A DNA stretch of 21,382 nt from positions 1 through 21,382 of the IMG/VR virus record IMGVR_UViG_3300037504_000244, one strand, 5' to 3'. Source of the DNA: a virus. A program made the position numbers and the translations under genes. This document shows, piece after piece, positions 6,766-21,232 of this stretch. Numbering within the stretch: the stretch's first letter is position 1; each line of letters starts with the position of its first letter. The notes under the pieces were generated by a model. That model ran no database searches and was not told where the DNA came from. It was given only the letters and a program-made list of their open reading frames with translations.

Positions 6766-7755
6766 CTACTGGTTGTTGCTCTCCAACATCAAGAGCCACT
6801 CGGTATCCTGGCAGATCATCTTGATCACGTCGTACTGGCCCATATCGAGCGCGTTGCCGTCGGTGGTCCGCAGATTGGTGGCGTTGATCGTGATCGTGTT
6901 GTTGTCATCACCAATCAACGTCAACTCGTGTCCGTCCGTTGAGCAGGCCGCGATGGTGATCGTCACGGCGCCACCCGAATCAAGCGCGATGATATCGGCC
7001 TGATCCGTAGGGGTGATCGTCTCCCCATCGGTGACCGTCAGATCCTCGAACTCCTTGTAGATATGGCCGTTGCTCATCGTCAGGTCACCCACGCCGAGGG
7101 TCACATCGCCGTCGAGGCGGGTGTTACCATCGGCCTCCAGGTTGCCCTGGATGTATGCGTCAAGCCCGTTGATGGTGAGGCTCGCGCCGCTGGGGTCTCC
7201 CACAACGAAGTTGCCAGTCGACACGACGAAGTACCCATCGCTGGCCACCGTGGCCGTCAGCGTGCCGTTGTTGGCATTGGAGATCGTCTCATCATTCTCA
7301 AAGGTCAGATCACCCTCGATACCCAACGCACCACCGTTGCCCACTGTCACCACGTCGGTACCATCCGATTGCTCGAAGACGACGAGGTTGCTAGTCTGAG
7401 TCGTGTAGCCTTGAACAGTCAGTTGAACAGCATCGGCCGCGCCGTCGACCATCAGGTCATCGGTCATCGTGATCGCGCCAGTGCCGCTGGTAATGTTACC
7501 ATCCACGTCCATCGTGTCGTTCAGTGTCACCGCGCCGTCCGCGTCGAGGGTCTGTAGCCCATCGACGCCACCCGAATCGCTCACACTGAAGATCACCGAC
7601 CCAGTGTCGTCCTCCAGCCGGAAGGCGTACCCACTCAAGCTCTGGATCCCCACGTCCACAGGCTCTTCCGCTGAGCTCAACAGGAAGAACAGCCCCAGCG
7701 CGAGCGTAACGGCCAACACCACGGCAACAGCGATATCCTGAATCCTCTTTCTCAT
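6766..7755 (-). CDS. Exported or membrane-anchored beta-repeat protein
   Basis: The ATG at 7755 (AAAGGAG upstream) is preferred over the open frame to 7818, which runs through a large hairpin. The 329-residue product starts MRKRIQDIAVAVVLAVTLALG, with a basic start and a hydrophobic segment at residues 8-28. This is a signal peptide (possible cut near SSA-EE) or an uncleaved anchor. The rest is made of short beta-strand repeats rich in D, G, T and N (LDADGAVTLNDTMDVDGNIT and similar), ending in a DNNTITINATNL..GQYDVIKMI domain often seen at the C-terminus of phage fibre-like proteins. A signal segment is odd for a gene right after the major capsid protein. It could be a host-surface protein made during infection or lysogeny, or a fibre. 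Confidence 0.7.
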   Translation of the reverse strand: MRKRIQDIAVAVVLAVTLALGLFFLLSSAEEPVDVGIQSLSGYAFRLEDDTGSVIFSVSDSGGVDGLQTLDADGAVTLNDTMDVDGNITSGTGAITMTDDLMVDGAADAVQLTVQGYTTQTSNLVVFEQSDGTDVVTVGNGGALGIEGDLTFENDETISNANNGTLTATVASDGYFVVSTGNFVVGDPSGASLTINGLDAYIQGNLEADGNTRLDGDVTLGVGDLTMSNGHIYKEFEDLTVTDGETITPTDQADIIALDSGGAVTITIAACSTDGHELTLIGDDNNTITINATNLRTTDGNALDMGQYDVIKMICQDTEWLLMLESNNQ

Positions 7756-7775
7756 GTCCCTTCTCCTTTCATTCA

Positions 7776-7825
7776 GCGGCCGGTGGCGGCGCGACGGGAT
7801 CCCGCCCCGCCGCCACACAGGCCGC
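7776..7825 (-). repeat. Large inverted repeat after the major capsid gene
   Basis: GCGGCC (7776-7781) pairs with GGCCGC (7820-7825), and inside it GTGGCGGC (7783-7790) pairs with GCCGCCAC (7809-7816), enclosing a GGGATCCC palindrome. It fills the gap between the capsid stop (7857) and the next start (7755). There is no T-run after it on the minus strand, so it may reduce read-through or protect the capsid mRNA end without acting as a strict terminator. Confidence 0.55.
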
Positions 7826-7856: not shown

Positions 7857-8828
7857 CTACGTGTTGCCCTGGATGCACAGCCGCCAATCGCCGTAGAACC
7901 CTTCGTACCGGGCGACCCAGCTGTAGTACCGGATTCCGCTGGGCACCTGGCTGTAGTCATCCCAGTAGACGAGCTGAGGCTGCTGCCGGATCTGCAGGTT
8001 GACAGGTTTGGCGGGCTGACTGGGATCGACCAGGAACCAAGCGGAGCTGTCCAGATACCCACCGGGGGCCTGGAGACCGGTCACGCCATCGCGATAGGGA
8101 TTGATCTCCCGGTTGGCGACATCATACGCCCACTGATTGTCCACGATCTGGGCGGCGGTGCGCCGGAGCTCAAGCGCGTGGATCAAGAGGGTGTGCTCGA
8201 ATCCGCACGGCTCCCCTCGATCGTCCACGAAGAGTCCGGCCGCGTTGAAGACAGTCTCGAAGTTATCCAGGCTGAGCGACAGGGCATACTCATTATCCTG
8301 GGCGGTGGTGTATTCGGCGCCGGGATCGGCGTGGCTAGCAGAGAAGAAGTTCTGACCATCATAGCAATGGCCGTAGGTGTCAGCGCCGCCAGAGTTGAGA
8401 AGCTGGAATGCTAGGTAATCCTTGTGCTGCTCGAAGCGCCAGCTGGCGCTACGCGCCCACTGCTCCAGTCCACCGACGCGGTCGTCATTGATGGCGTTGT
8501 GATAGATACCGATGGTAATCGGCCAATCCCGGTTGTGAACGGTCAGGCCGCGCTCGTTGCCGCCCAGGATGGTCACCGGCCCACCTTCGTGGAGCCCGCC
8601 CACCTGGGGGTGCCCGGTGCGGCCGTCGGTGCCCGTGTCGCCGCCCTGCCCGCCGTTAGCGGACGGGAACGGCACGGCGCCCATGTCGACATACATCTCG
8701 AACGCCCCGTCGCTCGGCGTTTCTTTGCAAAACGCCGCACGCTTGGGACGATACTCTTTCTTCGCCTTGAGGAAATTGACCTTTGCTCCCCGTTCAAGAC
8801 GACCAACAACGTCTGTTCTAACGATCAT
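7857..8828 (-). CDS. Major capsid protein, Mu gpT-like
   Basis: A 323-residue protein with an ATG at 8828 and AAAGGAG 10 bases upstream. Residues 156-167 (YDGQNFFSASHA) carry the motif seen in Mu gpT-type head subunits. Around it are the expected DWPITIGIYHNAINDDRVGG segment, the EYALSLSLDNFETVFNAAGLF and HTLLIHALELRRTAAQIVDN helices, and the C-terminal RYYSWVARYEGFYGDWRLCI. The Gly-rich loop at residues 56-83 replaces part of the usual E-loop region. The protein should form the HK97-fold shell. It sits after the decoration protein and the protease/scaffold gene exactly as in Mu (I-Z-T order). It is a little longer than Mu gpT (about 305 residues). Confidence 0.85.
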   Translation of the reverse strand: MIVRTDVVGRLERGAKVNFLKAKKEYRPKRAAFCKETPSDGAFEMYVDMGAVPFPSANGGQGGDTGTDGRTGHPQVGGLHEGGPVTILGGNERGLTVHNRDWPITIGIYHNAINDDRVGGLEQWARSASWRFEQHKDYLAFQLLNSGGADTYGHCYDGQNFFSASHADPGAEYTTAQDNEYALSLSLDNFETVFNAAGLFVDDRGEPCGFEHTLLIHALELRRTAAQIVDNQWAYDVANREINPYRDGVTGLQAPGGYLDSSAWFLVDPSQPAKPVNLQIRQQPQLVYWDDYSQVPSGIRYYSWVARYEGFYGDWRLCIQGNT

Positions 8829-8858
8829 CTGCTAGTTTCTCCTTTCACTCACGCCCGC

Positions 8859-11067: not shown

Positions 11068-13083
11068 TCATCCCCTCAACTCCGCCCGCACGTCGGAAAG
11101 CATGCGCCCTCCGTAGTTTTCACTGACAATCATCTTGTGGAGATCGCGGCACCCGTTGACCCCACCCCACGGCGTGTTCAACGGCTGTTTGCAGACGCGA
11201 TCGCCGCGAACGGTGTACCAGACCACACACCACTCCCCATTGGGCAACAACTGCGGTCGCGTAGCGCACCGGCAACGCGGGTGAGCGGGAGCCTTCTTCT
11301 CTGCCCTCGGCAACCCCACTGACTGGCGCACCAGGTCGTTCGCCTCATCGAAGGCCCTCGTAACCTCTGTTGAGGCGATCAGATCCGCCCGCCGGCGGCC
11401 GAACGTCGGCGCCAACGCATCGATTAGATCATCTAGCCGCGCGCCGGTCTCGATCCAGGCCGCCACGTCCTCCCGCACCGAGGCCCGCGTGGTCTCGGTG
11501 ATGCCGGTGATCAGCTCCCCCACATACTCCCGCGCCCACCGGGCCGCGTCCGCGTTGACGCCCGCCCAATCCGCGCCACCCCCAAGCTGCGCGGTGACGT
11601 CATCGATAGCGATGTCGACCAACCCGTTAACGATCTGCTGAAGCTGGCCCAGGAACCGCTGGCGGAAGGTCTGGGTCTCGGCTTCCCAGAACCCATCGTC
11701 TTCACCCACGTTGTTCTGGGGCGAACGCTCCATCTCCGATCGCACCCGGCCAAGCTGTTCCGCCAAGAACCTCTCGACGTCATCTGATAGGTCTGCCTCG
11801 ATCGCCGCCCGGTCCTCGTCCCGGCCGTCCCACTCTGCGAACTCTGCCAATTCGGCTAACTCTTCCTCGTCCGACTCAGGATCCTGGTCCTCGTCCTGTT
11901 CTTGATCCTCCACTCCGTCGCCCTTGCGCGTCGGCATCCCGGTCCGCTTCCGGATCCAGTTTTCATCCTCCTCGGTCCAGGTGATCAGCTGAGCCACCTG
12001 CTGGAGCCAATTTCCCAGCTGTCCCAGCGCTGGCTTCTCGACCGGCGTGTGAGTCAGCGACGCCGACCCCGCGATCTGCGGGTTGAACTCCAACAACCGC
12101 GGCACGCCGAATCGATTCCCAACGTTCGCCAGCCGGTCGAGGGTCCCATCGGTCGCCATCAGGTAGAGCTGGCTTTTGTCGCTACCCAGCGCCCAACTCC
12201 CCGTCTGACCAGTCCCCAGGTTGATGAAATCGGCCAGCATCGTCTGGAGCATCAATAGCCGGTAATACTGGATCGTCTGCAGCAACGCATCTGCCCCGCT
12301 GTTTTGCGCTGTCACCAGATCCATCCGAACGCCTGGCGGGAGACTGACATACTGTTTCGCGTCGACTGTCAACCCCTGGCCAATCTCATCGACTTTTGCC
12401 AGATCCTCTGGGCTCGGCTTTTCCTCGAACTCAAACTTCGGAAGTCCCACAAACGAACGACTCCAGCCAATCCCGTTGATGATCTGCAGATTCTTGATGT
12501 AGTACCATGTCTCGTAGAGGGATTCTAGCAGACTCATTCCCTCCGGGTTCCCCCCATCCCGCTGGAAGGTAAAATGAAGGCTCTTCTGGATCGGGATCGG
12601 GATCAGCTCATAGGTCGGCGCCGGCGCCTGGATCAGCGCATGAACCCCTCCGGTGTCATCAAAGTCCCACTCATGAAACGATGACTGGCGCCGCACGGCC
12701 CACTTTCGCCAGCCGATCAGCCCGTCATCGCGCCGCTTGTAGCAGATCTCCAGCCACGACCAGCCAAACATCACGCACGTCAGCGCGTCCTCAATCGCAT
12801 CCTCGATGGTATGGCTCATATCGGCGATGCAGCTATTGAGAAACTCCGCCGCGCGCTTGTCCTCGTCCGCCTCAGAATCGGGCTCGAAGTACCAGGTGGC
12901 TGTCCTGGCCAGCATAATCAGCGCGTTCCACATCGTTCGGATGGTGGGATCCCGGCGCCGCATCTCATCGTAAACGTTGTACGCATCGGGCCATTCGAGC
13001 TTGCTGGTGTACGCCTCGGTCACCTGACCGGCAAACGTCAGCAATCCGGTGCGCCCCACCTCACCCATCGGAGCAGTTGGCAT
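11068..13083 (-). CDS. Portal protein fused to MuF-like head morphogenesis domain
   Basis: I use the ATG at 13083, which forms TGATG with the terminase stop and follows GGTGGGG; a GTG at 13095 is the alternative. The product is 671 residues. Residues 1-385 fit the Mu gp29/DUF935-type portal (YNVYDEMRRRDPTIRTMWNAL, then VMFGWSWLEICYKRRDDG and LLQTIQYYRLLMLQTMLADF), forming the ring through which DNA passes. An acidic linker (about 390-440, DQEQDEDQDPESDEEE) leads to a MuF/SPP1 gp7-like domain with STEVTR (571-576) and HPRCRC (601-606). Mu keeps portal and F separate. In this protein a WYTVRGDRVC...GC.DLH segment (about 621-649) comes after HPRCRC, whereas in usual MuF proteins the equivalent segment comes before it. 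MuF proteins are packaged in small numbers in the head. Confidence 0.85.
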   Translation of the reverse strand: MPTAPMGEVGRTGLLTFAGQVTEAYTSKLEWPDAYNVYDEMRRRDPTIRTMWNALIMLARTATWYFEPDSEADEDKRAAEFLNSCIADMSHTIEDAIEDALTCVMFGWSWLEICYKRRDDGLIGWRKWAVRRQSSFHEWDFDDTGGVHALIQAPAPTYELIPIPIQKSLHFTFQRDGGNPEGMSLLESLYETWYYIKNLQIINGIGWSRSFVGLPKFEFEEKPSPEDLAKVDEIGQGLTVDAKQYVSLPPGVRMDLVTAQNSGADALLQTIQYYRLLMLQTMLADFINLGTGQTGSWALGSDKSQLYLMATDGTLDRLANVGNRFGVPRLLEFNPQIAGSASLTHTPVEKPALGQLGNWLQQVAQLITWTEEDENWIRKRTGMPTRKGDGVEDQEQDEDQDPESDEEELAELAEFAEWDGRDEDRAAIEADLSDDVERFLAEQLGRVRSEMERSPQNNVGEDDGFWEAETQTFRQRFLGQLQQIVNGLVDIAIDDVTAQLGGGADWAGVNADAARWAREYVGELITGITETTRASVREDVAAWIETGARLDDLIDALAPTFGRRRADLIASTEVTRAFDEANDLVRQSVGLPRAEKKAPAHPRCRCATRPQLLPNGEWCVVWYTVRGDRVCKQPLNTPWGGVNGCRDLHKMIVSENYGGRMLSDVRAELRG

Positions 13084-14678
13084 CAGACCCCCCACCTACC
13101 ACGTTCGCCCGCCAGCTCAGCCATCCCACCAATCTCCCCAAACGGATCCCAGCGGCTCGGCACCGTCGGCGCCTGAGGAAGATCCGACATCGCCACGTAT
13201 CCCGGACACATTTGCCAAACGCCGCTGACACCGTCGACCTGGTCATCATTCGCCCCGTTGGGGAACGCCACCGCCTCGGCGATGAAATCGTCGTTCCACG
13301 GCCCGCGGACCATAAACACCTTCCCGTCCTCGATCCGCGTGCCCCAGAGCTGAGCGCGCGCCTCCTTGTCGCCCTTGGGCAGCACCGCCTCGATGGCGCG
13401 CATATGAAGCCGGTCATCGTCCCGGAAGTTCTGGTAATAGCCGTCCTGCTGCCCGCCGATCTCAATCCCCTGGACAACTTCCATCGGGTCGTTGAGCATC
13501 ACATCGATCATCCGCGGCCGGGCAGAGGACCAGGGCGCCGGAATACGCGCGATATCGATGATGTAGAAATTCTTCTGCCGATCCCGGCCGCCCAGCACTC
13601 CCGAGAGCCAATCGGCCTTCTTCCGGCCCACCGCCAGATCCCAGTACCGATAGAGTCGCATCCCCCGCGGCACGTCCTCCCGATCGATGATCTTGATTTT
13701 CCGCGCCTTGATCATCGCCCCCTCGGTCCGCCAGGGCCGCTGCTGATAAAGCGCGTCGAAATCGTAGCCGCCGATATTGGCCTTGATTGCCTGCAACGCC
13801 TCGATCGAGTACTTGACCGGCCAAAGCGCCTGACCAGGCTCACGCCCCATCGGATCGACCCCCATCCACCACCCCGACCGAACTGCCTCCCGGACCTGAT
13901 CCGGCTCAACCTTCTCGGCCCACTCCTCGGCGATCGCTGGAAGACATAGGACCTCCCACCGATCCGCCCCGGGCTCCTCGACCATCTGCCGGAGCAGACG
14001 CCCAGCCCAGTCATCGGCGTGCCAGCGGGTGAGAATCCCAATCACGGCCGCATTGTTCTCCAGACGCGTGTACGCCGTCGAGGTCCACCAGTTCCACACC
14101 GCGTCCCGCCGGGCCTTGCTCTCTGCGTCCGCTCGATCCTTATGTGGATCATCGATGATCATCAGGTGGGCGCCCTTGCCCGTAATTCCGCTGCCCACAC
14201 CCGCAGCCACCATCCCGCCGCGGTGACCCTCCAGCGTCCACCGCTCCACGCTCCGGCTGTCCCCGGAGATCTGGACCGGGTCCCCGGCCGAGAGATCGCC
14301 GAATACAGCGCGGTACGGATTGTCGAGCACCACGTTTCGCGCCTGGCGGGAGAAACCCGTTGCCAGCGAGCTGTTGTAGCTGGCGATGATCACCTTACAA
14401 TCCGGATTCCGGCCCAGAAACCAGGCCGGAAACAACGTAGATGAGTTGAGGCTCTTGCCGTGCCGGGGCGGCATAAAGATCAGCAACCGGCCGATCCCCT
14501 CCCGCCCCTGGGTCGCCACGTACCGCTCTACCTCCTGAAGGTAGGCCGCCAGAATCTCCACGTGAGCCGAATCCTGCCAGCCCCGGTAGGCGTATCGAGC
14601 GAAATCCAGGTAATTCGTCCGGGCCAGATCGATTTCGAGAAGATCTTTCTCGATCAGTTCGGCTTCACTCAGCGGCAT
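13083..14678 (-). CDS. terL: Terminase large subunit
   Basis: A 531-residue packaging motor. Residues 69-76 are the Walker A MPPRHGKS, residues 172-177 the Walker B LMIIDD, and SYNSSLATGFSRQARNVV (100-117) is the conserved segment between them. The C-terminal RNase H-like nuclease shows D347 in YWDLAVG, E406 in QGIEIGGQQDG and D478/D479/D482 in NDDQVDG, so all catalytic acids are present. It cuts the concatemer and pumps DNA into the prohead using ATP. The ATG overlaps the small subunit gene by 14 bases and the stop shares a base with the portal start, so packaging genes are translated as one block. Length is normal for Mu/P22-like members. Confidence 0.95.
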   Translation of the reverse strand: MPLSEAELIEKDLLEIDLARTNYLDFARYAYRGWQDSAHVEILAAYLQEVERYVATQGREGIGRLLIFMPPRHGKSLNSSTLFPAWFLGRNPDCKVIIASYNSSLATGFSRQARNVVLDNPYRAVFGDLSAGDPVQISGDSRSVERWTLEGHRGGMVAAGVGSGITGKGAHLMIIDDPHKDRADAESKARRDAVWNWWTSTAYTRLENNAAVIGILTRWHADDWAGRLLRQMVEEPGADRWEVLCLPAIAEEWAEKVEPDQVREAVRSGWWMGVDPMGREPGQALWPVKYSIEALQAIKANIGGYDFDALYQQRPWRTEGAMIKARKIKIIDREDVPRGMRLYRYWDLAVGRKKADWLSGVLGGRDRQKNFYIIDIARIPAPWSSARPRMIDVMLNDPMEVVQGIEIGGQQDGYYQNFRDDDRLHMRAIEAVLPKGDKEARAQLWGTRIEDGKVFMVRGPWNDDFIAEAVAFPNGANDDQVDGVSGVWQMCPGYVAMSDLPQAPTVPSRWDPFGEIGGMAELAGERGRWGV

Positions 14679-17401: not shown

Positions 17402-17653
17402 CTACCGATAGTCGTGGCCGGGGATGAGATTCTCGGCCCGGGCCTTCTCGTGAGCGAAATCGGACAGAGCGTCGAAGTCGTTGCCATCGAAGTCGATTCT
17501 CTCCAGATTCTCATGCGCCCACGGCTGAGCCAGCATCGCCGTGAGCCCGGCGAACTCGACCCGGGCGTACTCGCTGACCTCGAAATCTCCGTGCTCTAGG
17601 TAGGTCTCGATCATCTCTCTCAGTTGCTTCTCCGTCATCTGCGTGTTCTCCAT
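17402..17653 (-). CDS. Small acidic protein of unknown function
   Basis: The frame is open from 17890, but that stretch contains the promoter and a terminator. The ATG at 17653 has AAAAGGAGAG 6 bases upstream, so this start is firm and gives 83 residues. The sequence is acidic and helical at the start (MENTQMTEKQLREMIETYLE), with a Trp/His/Asn centre and an ending like LIPGHDYR. It has no membrane segment and I recognise no family. It is the first gene of the cassette driven by the promoter at 17735-17763. Small acidic phage proteins of this kind often bind or inhibit host or phage proteins, but nothing in the sequence shows which. Confidence 0.65.
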   Translation of the reverse strand: MENTQMTEKQLREMIETYLEHGDFEVSEYARVEFAGLTAMLAQPWAHENLERIDFDGNDFDALSDFAHEKARAENLIPGHDYR

Positions 17654-17726: not shown

Positions 17727-17759
17727 GTACCACTATGGTACCACAACGGTACCGATTTG
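17727..17759. repeat. Three 11-bp operator-like direct repeats over the promoter
   Basis: Plus-strand units GTACCACTATG, GTACCACAACG and GTACCGATTTG follow each other with an exact 11-base period, so the GGTACC cores face the same side of the helix. They cover the -10 and the spacer and touch the -35. A fourth GGTAC lies upstream at 17774-17778. This layout fits cooperative binding by a repressor, possibly the product of 16905-17342. Confidence 0.7.
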
Positions 17760-17763
17760 TCAA
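17735..17763 (-). promoter_or_regulatory. Sigma70-type promoter of the cassette
   Basis: On the minus strand TTGACA (17763-17758, perfect -35) and TACCAT (17740-17735, 4 of 6 for the -10) are separated by exactly 17 bases. The start of transcription would be near 17728, giving a leader of about 75 bases before the ATG at 17653. The -10 and spacer are covered by 11-bp repeats, implying repression. Confidence 0.75.
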
Positions 17764-17829
17764 GGGTCAATTTGGTACTTTTTGGGTTATTCTGATAAAG
17801 ACTATAATTATTCCCCTGATGCGCTCCGA

Positions 17830-17849
17830 TTTTGCATAGGTACAATAAC
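17830..17849 (+). repeat. Right copy of outward inverted repeat TTTTGC..AGGTACAATAAC
   Basis: The plus strand reads TTTTGC, AT, AGGTACAATAAC. It matches 16843-16864 (minus strand) at all 18 block positions, with spacers of 2 and 4 bases. The copies are about 965 bases apart and enclose the two-gene cassette. Confidence 0.7.
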
Positions 17850-17870
17850 GTGCCTTGTTGCGCCACAGCA

Positions 17871-17900
17871 AGAACCCCCCGCTCAACCAAGAGCGAGGGG
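17871..17900 (-). terminator. Terminator ending the lipoprotein-FtsK operon
   Basis: On the minus strand CCCCTCGCTC, loop TTGGTT and GAGCGGGGGG form a 10-bp stem with one G-T pair, followed by TTCTT. It lies 38 bases after the stop at 17938 and separates this operon from the cassette promoter. Confidence 0.7.
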
Positions 17901-17937
17901 CTCTCTACACGTCCCGCTAATAATATCTAGCGCCATC

Positions 17938-18138
17938 CTACACACTGTTCGCGTGGCGCTCGATCTCAGCCCACATCGCGTCCACCAGGAAGCGCCGTAG
18001 CGTGGAGAAAGCCAGGAGAATCGCCCCGGCCTCCTCCGGCGTCTCAATGTACCCGATCATCTCATCAGCTGCCTTCGACGTCGCGGCCACAATCCGCTCC
18101 TCCAGTCGCTCCAGCACGCTATCCGCCCCCACCTTCAC
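17938..18138 (-). CDS. Small helical protein of unknown function
   Basis: The frame is open to 18198, but I choose the GTG at 18138, which follows AAAGGAGG at close to ideal spacing and reduces overlap with the upstream gene to 20 bases. This gives 66 residues, VKVGADSVLERLEERIVAATS onward, all predicted helical and amphipathic, with ETPEEAGAILLAFSTLRRFLVDAMWAEIER at the end. There is no membrane segment and no known family. It is the last gene of the operon that begins with the lipoprotein and FtsK genes and stands just before a terminator. Longer starts at 18198 or 18183 are possible. Confidence 0.55.
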   Translation of the reverse strand: MKVGADSVLERLEERIVAATSKAADEMIGYIETPEEAGAILLAFSTLRRFLVDAMWAEIERHANSV

Positions 18139-18496
18139 GTCCCCCTCCTTTGAGCAACCACTCAACGAATCCAGGTTCCCCATCGCCCGCCCGCGCATGG
18201 GTCAGATTCCTTTCATCCACCGGCTTGCTTTTCATTGGCAGATTCTCACGTGCCATCAGATACTCGGCCCACCGCGCCTGTTGAACGCGCACGCGGAAGA
18301 ACAGGTGATCATCATCGAATGCACGACCCCAGATCCGGATCCCATTCTCGGCCAGCATATCCTCAATCTCCTGACCGGCCCATCCGCACCAGCGGTCGAT
18401 CGCAAAGCGGTGAGACTTTTCCCCTTTCATAGCCCTGAAAATCTCATCCACGCGCTCGAACCAATCCAGCTTTGCCAAAAACTCTATAAGGGTCAC
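18119..18496 (-). CDS. Protein of unknown function coupled to the FtsK gene
   Basis: A 125-residue protein whose GTG start shares GTGA with the FtsK stop and has GGAGG 6 bases upstream. Residues 1-90 look folded (MTLIEFLAKLDWFERVDEIF, then RFAIDRWCGWAGQEIEDMLAENGIRIWGRAFDDDHLFFRVRVQQARWAEYLM). There is an alpha-rich start and two strands (IRIWGRAF, LFFRVRV) of the kind seen in small alpha/beta proteins. The end is Gly-rich (KGGGREGGGG) and its DNA encodes the ribosome site of the next gene. I do not recognise a family. Tight coupling to the translocase suggests it works with it. Confidence 0.65.
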   Translation of the reverse strand: MTLIEFLAKLDWFERVDEIFRAMKGEKSHRFAIDRWCGWAGQEIEDMLAENGIRIWGRAFDDDHLFFRVRVQQARWAEYLMARENLPMKSKPVDERNLTHARAGDGEPGFVEWLLKGGGREGGGG

Positions 18497-20004
18497 AGTT
18501 TACCTCCTGAGAACCTCTTTTCCAGGAAAGGAGGAAGCTCCACCTCCCCCTCCCCTGCCTGGGACCATTCCGATCGTGGTGCCGTGGTAGGGCTGGTAAG
18601 GCGTGGTACGGCCCTCTGAGTCGTGGTGCGGGTCGTGGTAGGGGTCATGGTAAGGTTAGCCAGTCGTTCTAGCTCCTGCGTGACCTGGCGGCCCACAGGA
18701 TGGCCCTGGGCATTGCGCCCTGGAAGCGTCAGCCACCCCCGTCGCTCCCACGCTTTCGCCAGCTTATTGATCGCATACTTACTCAACCGCTCCTCGGCTC
18801 CCAAATCTCCATCTTCCTGGGCCTCATAAAGCCGGTCCGTCACAAACGCACCATCGAGCTCCTTGATCGCGTACCGCACCAGCGCCGCCTCGACCTCGGT
18901 CAACACCGGCCGGGCATCCGCCACGTCGAGCCACTCTCCTAGCGCATCCTCAGGCACGTAGACCGCCTGGGCCTTCCGCCAGCCCCCCCCGGCGTTGGTC
19001 AAACACTGTCCCACTCGAGCCAGCTTCTCCGCACCTTGCCGGTCTAGGATCACCTGGGACTCATATCGATCCGTCACAGCGAAGGAAATCCGCGTTTCCA
19101 AATTCGCCTTGACTTGCCGGCTGAGCACCGCCTTATCCGGCCGCTGGGTCGCCAGGATCAGAGAGATCCCCGCCGCGCGGCTTTTCCTGGCCAGCTCGAC
19201 CAGGTCATCCATCACCTGAGACTTAGCGAAATCTGCGCACTCATCGACCACCACCAAGAGCAGGGGGAAGCCCTCCCCCGGCGGCATCCGATCCCAGCTC
19301 GTCACCTGGGCAGCGCTCATCACGTCAAATCGTCGCTCCATCTCTTCCCGTACCCGCGCTACCAGCTCGGCCGCGTCCTCCGCCTTAGTGGCGATGGGAC
19401 GGACAAGATGGGGCAGGTTACCCAACGGTGTAAAATCGAGCCGCTTGAGATCCACGATAGCCAACTGGAGCGTGTCAGGTCCGTTCTTCCCGATCAACTG
19501 AAGTAAGATACTGAGAATCGCCGTCGTCTTTCCCCGGCCCGAGCTACCTGCGATCAGCATCGCCCGCTCTCCCCGCGCCAGGTCGAGCACCACATCATCG
19601 GCGCGGGAGACTCCAAGAAGCGCCGTGTATCGTCCACCGGGCACCCGATCCACCTCCAGGACCACCCGCCGCGGAAGTCGCTTCCGCTGGGGCTCGCCTG
19701 GCTCCCTAGCCACCACCACGGCCAACCCGGCCGAGTCCGCCACGAAACACCGCCGCCCGCGGAGCGTAGCCCGCAATTGGAGCCACATATCCCGGTCGAG
19801 CCAATCTTCGCGAGAGATCCCCGCCAATCGATTCATATCGAGCAAGAAGATCACCCGATCCGGCAGCACCAACGCCTCGGCACTGGGGATCACCGCCGTC
19901 CGGTTCTCCCGCTTCTGGCGTAGCATCCCCCGCTGTTTCAGCGTTGCAATCAGCCCACGCCAGTACGTCACCACCTCACTATATGATGCTGGTTGATTAT
20001 TCAT
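18493..20004 (-). CDS. FtsK/SpoIIIE-type DNA translocase
   Basis: A 503-residue protein whose ATG overlaps the lipoprotein stop by 8 bases. Residues 153-160 are the Walker A GSSGRGKT and 248-258 the Walker B LLLVVVDECAD. ATQRP (285-289) with KANLETRISFAVTDRYESQVILD is the hallmark of FtsK/SpoIIIE-type motors. Residues 360-455 look like a winged-helix unit (RYAIKELDGAFVTDRLYEAQ, then AINKLAKAWERRGWLTLPG) resembling a DNA-reading C-terminal domain, and the last 45 residues are Thr/Pro-rich linker. There are no membrane helices, unlike cellular FtsK, so it is a soluble motor. It could move DNA at the membrane through the coupled lipoprotein, or act in plasmid-like replication or segregation of the phage. 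All ATPase motifs are intact. Confidence 0.9.
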   Translation of the reverse strand: MNNQPASYSEVVTYWRGLIATLKQRGMLRQKRENRTAVIPSAEALVLPDRVIFLLDMNRLAGISREDWLDRDMWLQLRATLRGRRCFVADSAGLAVVVAREPGEPQRKRLPRRVVLEVDRVPGGRYTALLGVSRADDVVLDLARGERAMLIAGSSGRGKTTAILSILLQLIGKNGPDTLQLAIVDLKRLDFTPLGNLPHLVRPIATKAEDAAELVARVREEMERRFDVMSAAQVTSWDRMPPGEGFPLLLVVVDECADFAKSQVMDDLVELARKSRAAGISLILATQRPDKAVLSRQVKANLETRISFAVTDRYESQVILDRQGAEKLARVGQCLTNAGGGWRKAQAVYVPEDALGEWLDVADARPVLTEVEAALVRYAIKELDGAFVTDRLYEAQEDGDLGAEERLSKYAINKLAKAWERRGWLTLPGRNAQGHPVGRQVTQELERLANLTMTPTTTRTTTQRAVPRLTSPTTAPRSEWSQAGEGEVELPPFLEKRFSGGKL

Positions 20005-21232
20005 CCCCCATTTCCTCCCATTGCCCCTCGATCGCCTGGGCCAGTTGCGGTGGCAACACGCCGTCCGCCGCGGCCTGATCCAGCGCTCCGATCGTCCGCA
20101 CCCCCCTCAACCCCTGCTCTGGTCGACCGCGCATCCGCGGTGGTGGCAACGGAACACCGCCAGGGAAAATCACATTCCGAACCTTCTCCTTTTTAGGCTG
20201 GTGACGAGCTTTAACCACGTCACCCGTCTGACTGGCGTGCTCCAGATTGACCGTCTGCTGACGCGCCGTAGCCCGCTCCTGAAGCTCCGGGGACGGCGCC
20301 AGCATCGGCGCCCGCTCTGATCCGCGCGTCATATCAGCATACGAACCGAACTGACGCATTGGCAACGCAATCCGTTCCCGATCCAGGACCACAATCGGCT
20401 CTCCCTCATCCGGCTGACGCCGGATCACCCGCCCACGGTCCTCGATCAGATTCCATATCCGAAGGCCCAGATAACCAACGCCTCCGATTCCACAGAGAAT
20501 CACGAGCAAAACCCCCACCGCCCGCACCGGCTCCAGAAGCGCTTCTCTCCGGTCCAGACGCGCCACGGCCGCCGCCGTCGCCTGTACTGCGGTAGCTGAT
20601 GCCGCGTCCTGCCTGGCCACCACAGTCGCGGTAGCAATCTGGCTCTCTGTCGTAGCGGTCGTTTGGATCGAATAGGCCCGCGCCGTGGCGGTCGCTCTCT
20701 CACTCTGCGCTGTAGCCGTTGCCCGGCGTGCCTCTTCCGTAGCCGTTGCCTGTACTGCCCACGCTTGCGCCGTGGCGGTCACGTGAGCCACTTCCGCCGT
20801 GGCGGTCGCTCTGGCATAGCCCGCCTGTCGGGTCGCCTCCGCCTGGGCTAATGCCGCCTGGGCCGTCGCCGTCGCGTTGATTGCGTTTTGTCTCTCTTGA
20901 GCATCCAACGCCTGGCGCGTCGCCTCCGCCGCGCTGGCCCTGGCCCGCTCGTAGGCCTGAGCCTCGGCAGTCATCTGAGCTACCCGTTGCTCGTGCTGGA
21001 TCCGCGCCGCGTCCGCTGTAGCCTGAGCCTGAGCCGCCTGCTGACGGAGCATCTCCGCCTCCACGTATCGCTGGACCGCCGTAGCCTGGATCATATCCCG
21101 CGTTGGGCCAGGCGGAATCTCCTCAACTATACGCGTCAAGTCGATAGCGCTGGGCGTGTACGTTTCCCACTCTGCGCATCCACTCAAAAGCATCATTGTC
21201 AGGACCGCCGACAAAATCGTCGCCCTCTTCAT
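19997..21232 (-). CDS. Lipoprotein with long Thr-Ala-rich coiled coil and second membrane span
   Basis: The ATG at 21232 shares TGATG with the stop of the gene before it. The product is 411 residues. Residues 1-19 are a lipoprotein signal peptide (basic MKR, hydrophobic core, lipobox LSGC with C19). Residues 45-230 are a helical coiled coil with repeats of ATATAQA/ATATEE type every 9-11 residues. Residues 237-260 form a transmembrane helix (VGVLLVILCGIGGVGYLGL). A cytoplasmic tail of about 150 residues follows (RGRVIRRQPDEGEPIVVLDRE onward). The N-terminus is thus lipid-anchored outside while the C-terminus lies in the cytoplasm. Such Thr-Ala-rich proteins are frequent in Chloroflexota. The gene is coupled to the FtsK gene and may form its membrane partner. 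Function is not known. Confidence 0.8.
   Translation of the reverse strand: MKRATILSAVLTMMLLSGCAEWETYTPSAIDLTRIVEEIPPGPTRDMIQATAVQRYVEAEMLRQQAAQAQATADAARIQHEQRVAQMTAEAQAYERARASAAEATRQALDAQERQNAINATATAQAALAQAEATRQAGYARATATAEVAHVTATAQAWAVQATATEEARRATATAQSERATATARAYSIQTTATTESQIATATVVARQDAASATAVQATAAAVARLDRREALLEPVRAVGVLLVILCGIGGVGYLGLRIWNLIEDRGRVIRRQPDEGEPIVVLDRERIALPMRQFGSYADMTRGSERAPMLAPSPELQERATARQQTVNLEHASQTGDVVKARHQPKKEKVRNVIFPGGVPLPPPRMRGRPEQGLRGVRTIGALDQAAADGVLPPQLAQAIEGQWEEMGDE

Follow-up and report, generated by a model that had tools for sequence, protein, structure and literature searches.

A phage lipoprotein and a soluble FtsK-type translocase predicted to form one membrane-bound DNA motor

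The cellular DNA motors FtsK and SpoIIIE are held at the membrane by an N-terminal domain of four transmembrane (TM) helices and a flexible linker. Phage members of the family include those of the cluster J mycobacteriophages (Omega, LittleE), which have no N-terminal membrane domain and a divergent C-terminus, and such soluble phage FtsKs have long been without an assigned role (PMC3706429). In the Bacillus phages SpaA1 (P26-P28), BhaS-171 and Page, a membrane protein, an FtsK and a Replic_Relax protein (PF13814 in SpaA1 and BhaS-171) form a module, the best-known example of a membrane-protein gene directly upstream of a phage FtsK. FtsK-type motors also serve mobile elements, as do TcpA of pCW3 and TraB/Tra of Streptomyces. 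Finally, an N-terminal lipobox combined with a later TM domain is found in the u-spanins, such as T1 gp11.

The locus described here resembles the cellular systems in its motor family and in a predicted membrane tether via a flexible linker, but its membrane part lies on a separate one-TM lipoprotein, and the motor protein carries neither the four-TM domain nor a recognisable gamma domain. It shares with the cluster J proteins a phage motor without an N-terminal membrane domain and with a divergent C-terminus, whereas in cluster J a membrane-protein gene is not directly adjacent. Like the SpaA1-type module, it has a membrane-protein gene directly upstream of FtsK, near lysis genes; however, the membrane proteins of that module are different ones, without a lipobox, and are accompanied by Replic_Relax, which was not matched by the two small genes (gp125 and gp86) that follow FtsK here. 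The statement of an earlier note that no named system has this pairing is thus partly right, given that the Bacillus phages also place membrane-protein genes directly upstream of soluble FtsKs. Unlike TcpA and TraB, the motor has no conjugation partners that could be found, and it scored below the TraB cut-off.

The window, that is, the whole stretch of DNA analysed, comprises one entire IMG/VR virus record (21,382 bases), which is a linear fragment. Nearly all likely genes are carried by the minus strand, in the order lipoprotein, FtsK, two small orphans, two more small genes and a holin (Phage_holin_6_1), followed by a small helical protein, an M23 peptidase, the small and large terminase subunits, a Mu-type portal, protease, capsid and tail genes. 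The features of the module are listed in Table 1. The promoter-like site lies directly 3' of the FtsK module and is oriented toward the next gene.

Table 1. Predicted features of the lipoprotein–FtsK module (window positions; residues in protein numbering)
Feature	Position	Strand	Basis
Lipoprotein with later TM helix, 411 aa, putative membrane anchor of the motor	19997..21232	-	ORF, lipobox, TM, RBS, AlphaFold2 model, fused L208 counterpart
Signal peptide and lipobox LLSG↓C19, residues 1-19	21176..21232	-	Sequence
Ala/Thr/Gln-rich long helix, residues 43-226	20555..21106	-	AlphaFold2, pLDDT mostly >90
TM helix, residues 239-257	20462..20518	-	Mean KD 2.29, positive inner flank
Cytoplasmic tail, residues 258-411, mostly disordered, short C-terminal helices	20000..20461	-	AlphaFold2
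Soluble FtsK/SpoIIIE-family DNA translocase, 503 aa	18493..20004	-	PF01580, phrog_1358, Foldseek
Motor domain, residues 125-352	18949..19632	-	Walker A GSSGRGKT 153-160, Walker B DE 254-255, ATQRP
C-terminal helical region, residues 365-450, possibly winged helix	18655..18912	-	Low-confidence AlphaFold2 helices, sequence reading
gp125, orphan, 4-b overlap with FtsK stop	18119..18496	-
gp86, orphan small helical protein	17938..18198	-
Putative promoter-like site with GGTACC repeats	17735..17763	-	Consensus match only

The assignment of the 503-aa protein to the FtsK family was supported by Pfam, PHROG, PDB sequence and Foldseek searches: it matched PF01580 at 7.5e-26 (91.4 bits against a gathering score of 24) and phrog_1358 at 3.6e-59, and its top Foldseek matches were FtsK (6t8o, 1.2e-20), followed by TcpA (6o1x, 6e-17). 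The Walker motifs and the fold are intact. By its sequence the protein is a true FtsK-family motor, for which ATP-driven translocation of dsDNA is predicted. No TM helix was found in it at a cut-off of 1.6, and the N-terminal membrane domain of the cellular members is absent; residues 355-503 gave no Pfam match, and the XerD-activating gamma domain (KOPS/XerD) was not recognised there. The motor and lipoprotein reading frames share 8 bases (19997-20004), and GGAGGAAATGGGGG precedes the FtsK start codon. A defence role was rejected, as the PADLOC matches (SspH, mad8) span only the FtsK domain. The gp125 and gp86 frames overlap each other, family searches with both proteins gave no match, and relatives of gp125 as a separate gene were not detectable in viral contigs, phages or plasmids; a Replic_Relax identity was rejected after a profile search without a match. 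The description in the earlier note, namely an FtsK/SpoIIIE-type gene without its own membrane domain, overlapping the lipoprotein gene by 8 bases and followed by two coupled genes of no known family, therefore holds in all of these points.

For the lipoprotein, the lipid anchor at the N-terminus and the later TM helix were likewise both found. Directly after the TM helix (residues 239-257) stands the basic stretch RIWNLIEDRGRVIRR, which places the tail inside the cell; with 154 residues, the tail agrees with the roughly 150 anticipated. In the single-sequence AlphaFold2 model the TM helix extends over residues 236-265 and the tail has mostly pLDDT <50. The long helix, 184 residues and roughly 27 nm in length, holds TATA-type repeats. 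It had been expected as a 185-residue coiled coil outside the cell; a helix of this length is indeed predicted, but the coiled coil is unproven because heptad periodicity (3.5-3.67) was not significant. A fold search of BFVD with the lipoprotein gave no match, and no relative encoded as a separate gene was detectable in viral contigs, phages or plasmids.

The lipoprotein could also be read as a u-spanin-like lysis protein that adjoins FtsK by accident, considering that an N-terminal lipobox with a C-terminal TM domain is typical of u-spanins (PMC6139136), that its helix would be long enough to span the periplasm and that the holin and M23 endolysin genes lie 3.4 kb downstream. This is highly improbable, and a lysis identity was rejected on the tail, the fold, the position and a fused counterpart: the long cytoplasmic tail means that the TM helix is not C-terminal; the ectodomain is predicted to be helical, whereas the periplasmic domain of u-spanins is mainly beta (PMC6139136); the gene lies outside the lysis cassette, with terminator-like sites (16787-16624) between the two; and in the related phage L208 the same architecture is fused to a DNA motor. 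Moreover, the likely host phylum, Chloroflexi, is without LPS and, although the point is disputed, probably consists mostly of monoderms (PMC8871954).

Given that the lipoprotein and gp125 had no detectable relatives as separate genes, relatives of the locus were sought by phage kinship. About 40 related phages were gathered via terminase and portal alignments, and further ones via a ParA alignment; a scan of genome contigs for FtsK returned almost only cellular FtsKs. Six distinct members carry FtsK (the window, L024, L138, L203, L204 and L208). The kinship of L208 to the window phage is seen in its TerL (39% over 487 aa) and TerS (39%, 2e-27). Positions 4859-6730 of L208 form one ORF of 631 aa with a lipobox (LLAGC), an Ala/Thr/Gln stretch rich in TATAEARQATA-like sequence, a TM helix (residues 176-194 of the ORF) with the juxtamembrane sequence KRAQVIKRDERGDAPILV, an FtsK motor (PF01580, 46.9 bits, cut-off 24) and an HTH-like end. 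Judged from sequence, this single polypeptide firmly has the architecture of the lipoprotein/FtsK pair of the window; the fusion junction is covered by a single assembly, and L205 (99.3% identical) begins just past it. When the N-terminal part of L208 was compared with the window lipoprotein, the score was 156 against 70 +/- 10 in shuffles. Common descent of the two is rated only as likely, because the similarity is mostly low-complexity sequence and, for the tail by itself, is weak, its score being reached by 18 of 2000 shuffles. The pair thus recurs elsewhere in fused form, although the lipoprotein itself has no separate-gene relative.

All six FtsK-bearing members anchor the motor, either by fusion (L208, L138, L203) or through an adjoining membrane gene (window, L024, L204). 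TM helices lie inside the FtsK polypeptide in L138 (also L202) and L203; in L024 and L204 the gene directly after FtsK encodes a tailed 2-TM protein, and this gene overlaps FtsK by 11 b in L024 (counted from the ATG) and starts 23 b after it in L204. TM helices were called by a hydropathy script (cut-off 1.6) with a background of 26% of ORFs in these G+C-rich phages, and a TM-encoding neighbour is present for 46% of ORFs, so that adjacency alone (3/3) is not significant. With so high a background an adjacent TM gene proves little, and it is the fusions that carry the anchoring argument. Physical pairing of the lipoprotein and FtsK as one membrane-bound motor, as the earlier note had proposed, is well supported by the single polypeptide of L208 and by the fused or adjacent anchor in every FtsK member. 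Among GenBank phages, 7 of 12 sampled records encode a membrane protein directly upstream of FtsK, compared with 14 of 99 background genes (Fisher p=0.0014); after allowing for kinship, this comes down to about 3 among 6 independent lineages and is only suggestive.

In the motor-domain tree, which as a whole lacks resolution, L138 and L203 were strongly and L024 and L204 moderately grouped, while the window motor did not group with that of L208. By identity, its nearest motors are the FtsKs of cells and of cluster J phages (about 40%), and it is only about 31% identical to the L208 motor. Because the motors do not form one clade and the L208 motor is so distant, the module would have been assembled more than once, and anchoring would outlast motor replacement. 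Different FtsK motors seem to have been inserted at one and the same place, always accompanied by a membrane anchor.

ParA and a small gene resembling ribbon-helix-helix (RHH) proteins were found near FtsK in all five members in which the region is visible (L024, L138, L203, L204 and L208), and in L208 they adjoin the fused ORF. The RHH assignment reaches the Pfam cut-off only in L203 (RHH_5, 26.1 vs 26 bits). The order ParA, RHH-like gene and soluble-tailed membrane protein is seen in L024, L130, L131, L143, L147, L196, L199 and L201, and in many relatives this block separates the replication genes from the lysis/terminase genes. Since many members keep ParA and the membrane protein without FtsK, the membrane proteins may have another job. 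Those of L130, L143, L003 and L131 are related to one another; their C-termini read as winged-helix-like, without a database match. The DnaA-N-like gene of L196 weakly matches plasmid and DnaA genes. The window fragment stops about 150 b upstream of the lipoprotein gene, before any ParA could be visible. An RHH C-terminus sought in these last 150 b gave no significant match, the VIVLDG match to L024 being discounted because 85 of 2000 shuffles reach the same score and 14 proteins were tried.

Among 72,556 plasmids, the ParA nearest to that of L024 is encoded by a plasmid of Leptolinea sp. HRD-7 (46% identity vs <=33.5% for all others), which suggests a host in the Anaerolineae (Chloroflexota). 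The product of the gene behind the Leptolinea ParA gene, 140 aa long, resembles several of the phage proteins in carrying SRSPRYDW close to its end; no FtsK domain was found on this plasmid. An Anaerolineae host is thus likely for the phage family, though not proven for the window phage, for which we can only infer it.

Based on these data, the reading that we favour, with moderate confidence, is a split membrane-tethered FtsK-type motor that belongs to a plasmid-type maintenance module of a temperate phage and translocates the DNA of the phage itself. One membrane-anchored translocase of dsDNA would be split over two proteins, the lipoprotein and its FtsK-like partner. The TM helix and the N-terminal lipid would hold the lipoprotein in the cytoplasmic membrane, and its disordered tail would bind and tether a hexameric ATPase, so that the lipoprotein would supply in trans the function that cellular FtsK/SpoIIIE carry in cis in their N-terminal membrane domain and linker. 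The pair may belong to a module of ParA, an RHH-like protein and a membrane protein, with or without FtsK, whose owners would be temperate phages, probably of Anaerolineae. Maintenance as a plasmid or at division is suggested by the ParA and RHH-like genes that lie nearby in the relatives. The motor would most likely act on phage DNA at the membrane or septum, and an unintegrated or plasmid form of the phage may thereby be segregated or rescued at cell division. Of the uses considered at the outset, segregation is favoured by the same neighbours, whereas control of genome ejection found no support.

Transfer between cells had also been considered: the same anchored motor might pump phage DNA from cell to cell, for example along Anaerolineae filaments, in the manner of Streptomyces TraB/Tra and AICEs. 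In Actinobacteria, a single FtsK/SpoIIIE-like protein is enough to transfer dsDNA (PMC3218068), and the membrane anchoring of the motor across the whole family would fit this use. The TraB model NF041214 matches the window motor weakly (1.8e-15), but the score of 56.5 bits lies far under the cut-off of 800 bits; no relaxase or spd-like set was recognised, and the ParA and RHH-like neighbours favour maintenance, so transfer appears unlikely.

FtsK activates XerCD, and the motor could similarly aid the phage's tyrosine recombinase in resolving dimers or recombining the phage genome. Membrane anchoring fits septal FtsK, and L023, L117 (the L024 contig) and L204 have genes whose products by eye resemble tyrosine recombinases. 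The window fragment, however, contains no recombinase, and the window motor is without the recognisable gamma domain that would activate XerD; this role is therefore rated as quite unlikely. Control of DNA entry or superinfection by the pair at the membrane is very unlikely: a part in DNA injection was suggested for the SpoIIIE/FtsK of Bacillus phage Pony, but as speculation in its source (PMC3853050), there is no evidence of virion association, and ParA adjoins in the relatives.

Returning to the favoured reading of a split motor within a maintenance module, a wider version can be put forward only tentatively, and we rate it as rather doubtful: a split motor, anchored by lipid and TM helix and repeatedly assembled from unrelated motors and anchors in a single group of Chloroflexota phage-plasmids, would act with ParA as a self-contained pump that segregates phage DNA or passes it between the cells of a filament. 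A membrane-anchored motor beside ParA suggests a concrete job, namely membrane-linked DNA segregation in temperate phages or phage-plasmids. As the motor of this family is always anchored, and once as a lipoprotein fusion, it offers a testable minimal system, and the module opens up the little-studied phages of the Anaerolineae.

The membrane proteins of four related phages or viral contigs (L130, L143, L003 and L131) form one family with a common conserved C-terminal domain, which is possibly a winged helix. In L130, L143 and L131, the membrane-protein gene lies downstream of the ParA gene and the ribbon-helix-helix (RHH)-like gene, and no FtsK gene was seen adjoining it; the L003 contig begins too late to show the region. 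In the related L199, the position that follows the ParA and RHH-like genes is occupied by a 129-residue protein (8469-8858) with a charged helix and a transmembrane segment (TM), in which VVAC is a possible lipobox. Its design is similar to that of the window lipoprotein, here without FtsK.

The Leptolinea plasmid AP024711.1 appears to have its own partition version of the phage ParA module at 18001-19186, made up of a gene annotated 'Soj' and a hypothetical protein of 140 residues.

Within the structural region, amid capsid and tail genes, the window encodes a protein with an N-terminal signal-like helix (6766-7818), and the related L024 one with an N-terminal lipobox (17747-20509). The window portal (11068-13095) is a single polypeptide whose C-terminal region is head-morphogenesis-like (phrog_2468). 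GGTACC palindromes are interleaved with a promoter-like site, perhaps a repressor-controlled promoter for the gene at 17402. Holin-position proteins of the window's phage family carry an N-terminal lipobox, followed by a Pro-rich SPLPTP-type linker and a TM; a holin resembling a lipoprotein is unusual.

Locations of membrane proteins, holin-position proteins and the promoter-like site
Feature	Location	Detail
Membrane protein, conserved C-terminal domain	L130:3775-4707	
Membrane protein, conserved C-terminal domain	L143:2580-3497	
Membrane protein, conserved C-terminal domain	L003:176-1177	
Membrane protein, conserved C-terminal domain	L131:1756-2529	
Lipobox-bearing holin-position protein	L023:3573-4088	Phage_holin_6_1 match
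Lipobox-bearing holin-position protein	L131:6102-6557	
Lipobox-bearing holin-position protein	L135:3550-4062	
Promoter-like site	window 17735-17763	TTGACA, 17 nt, TACCAT
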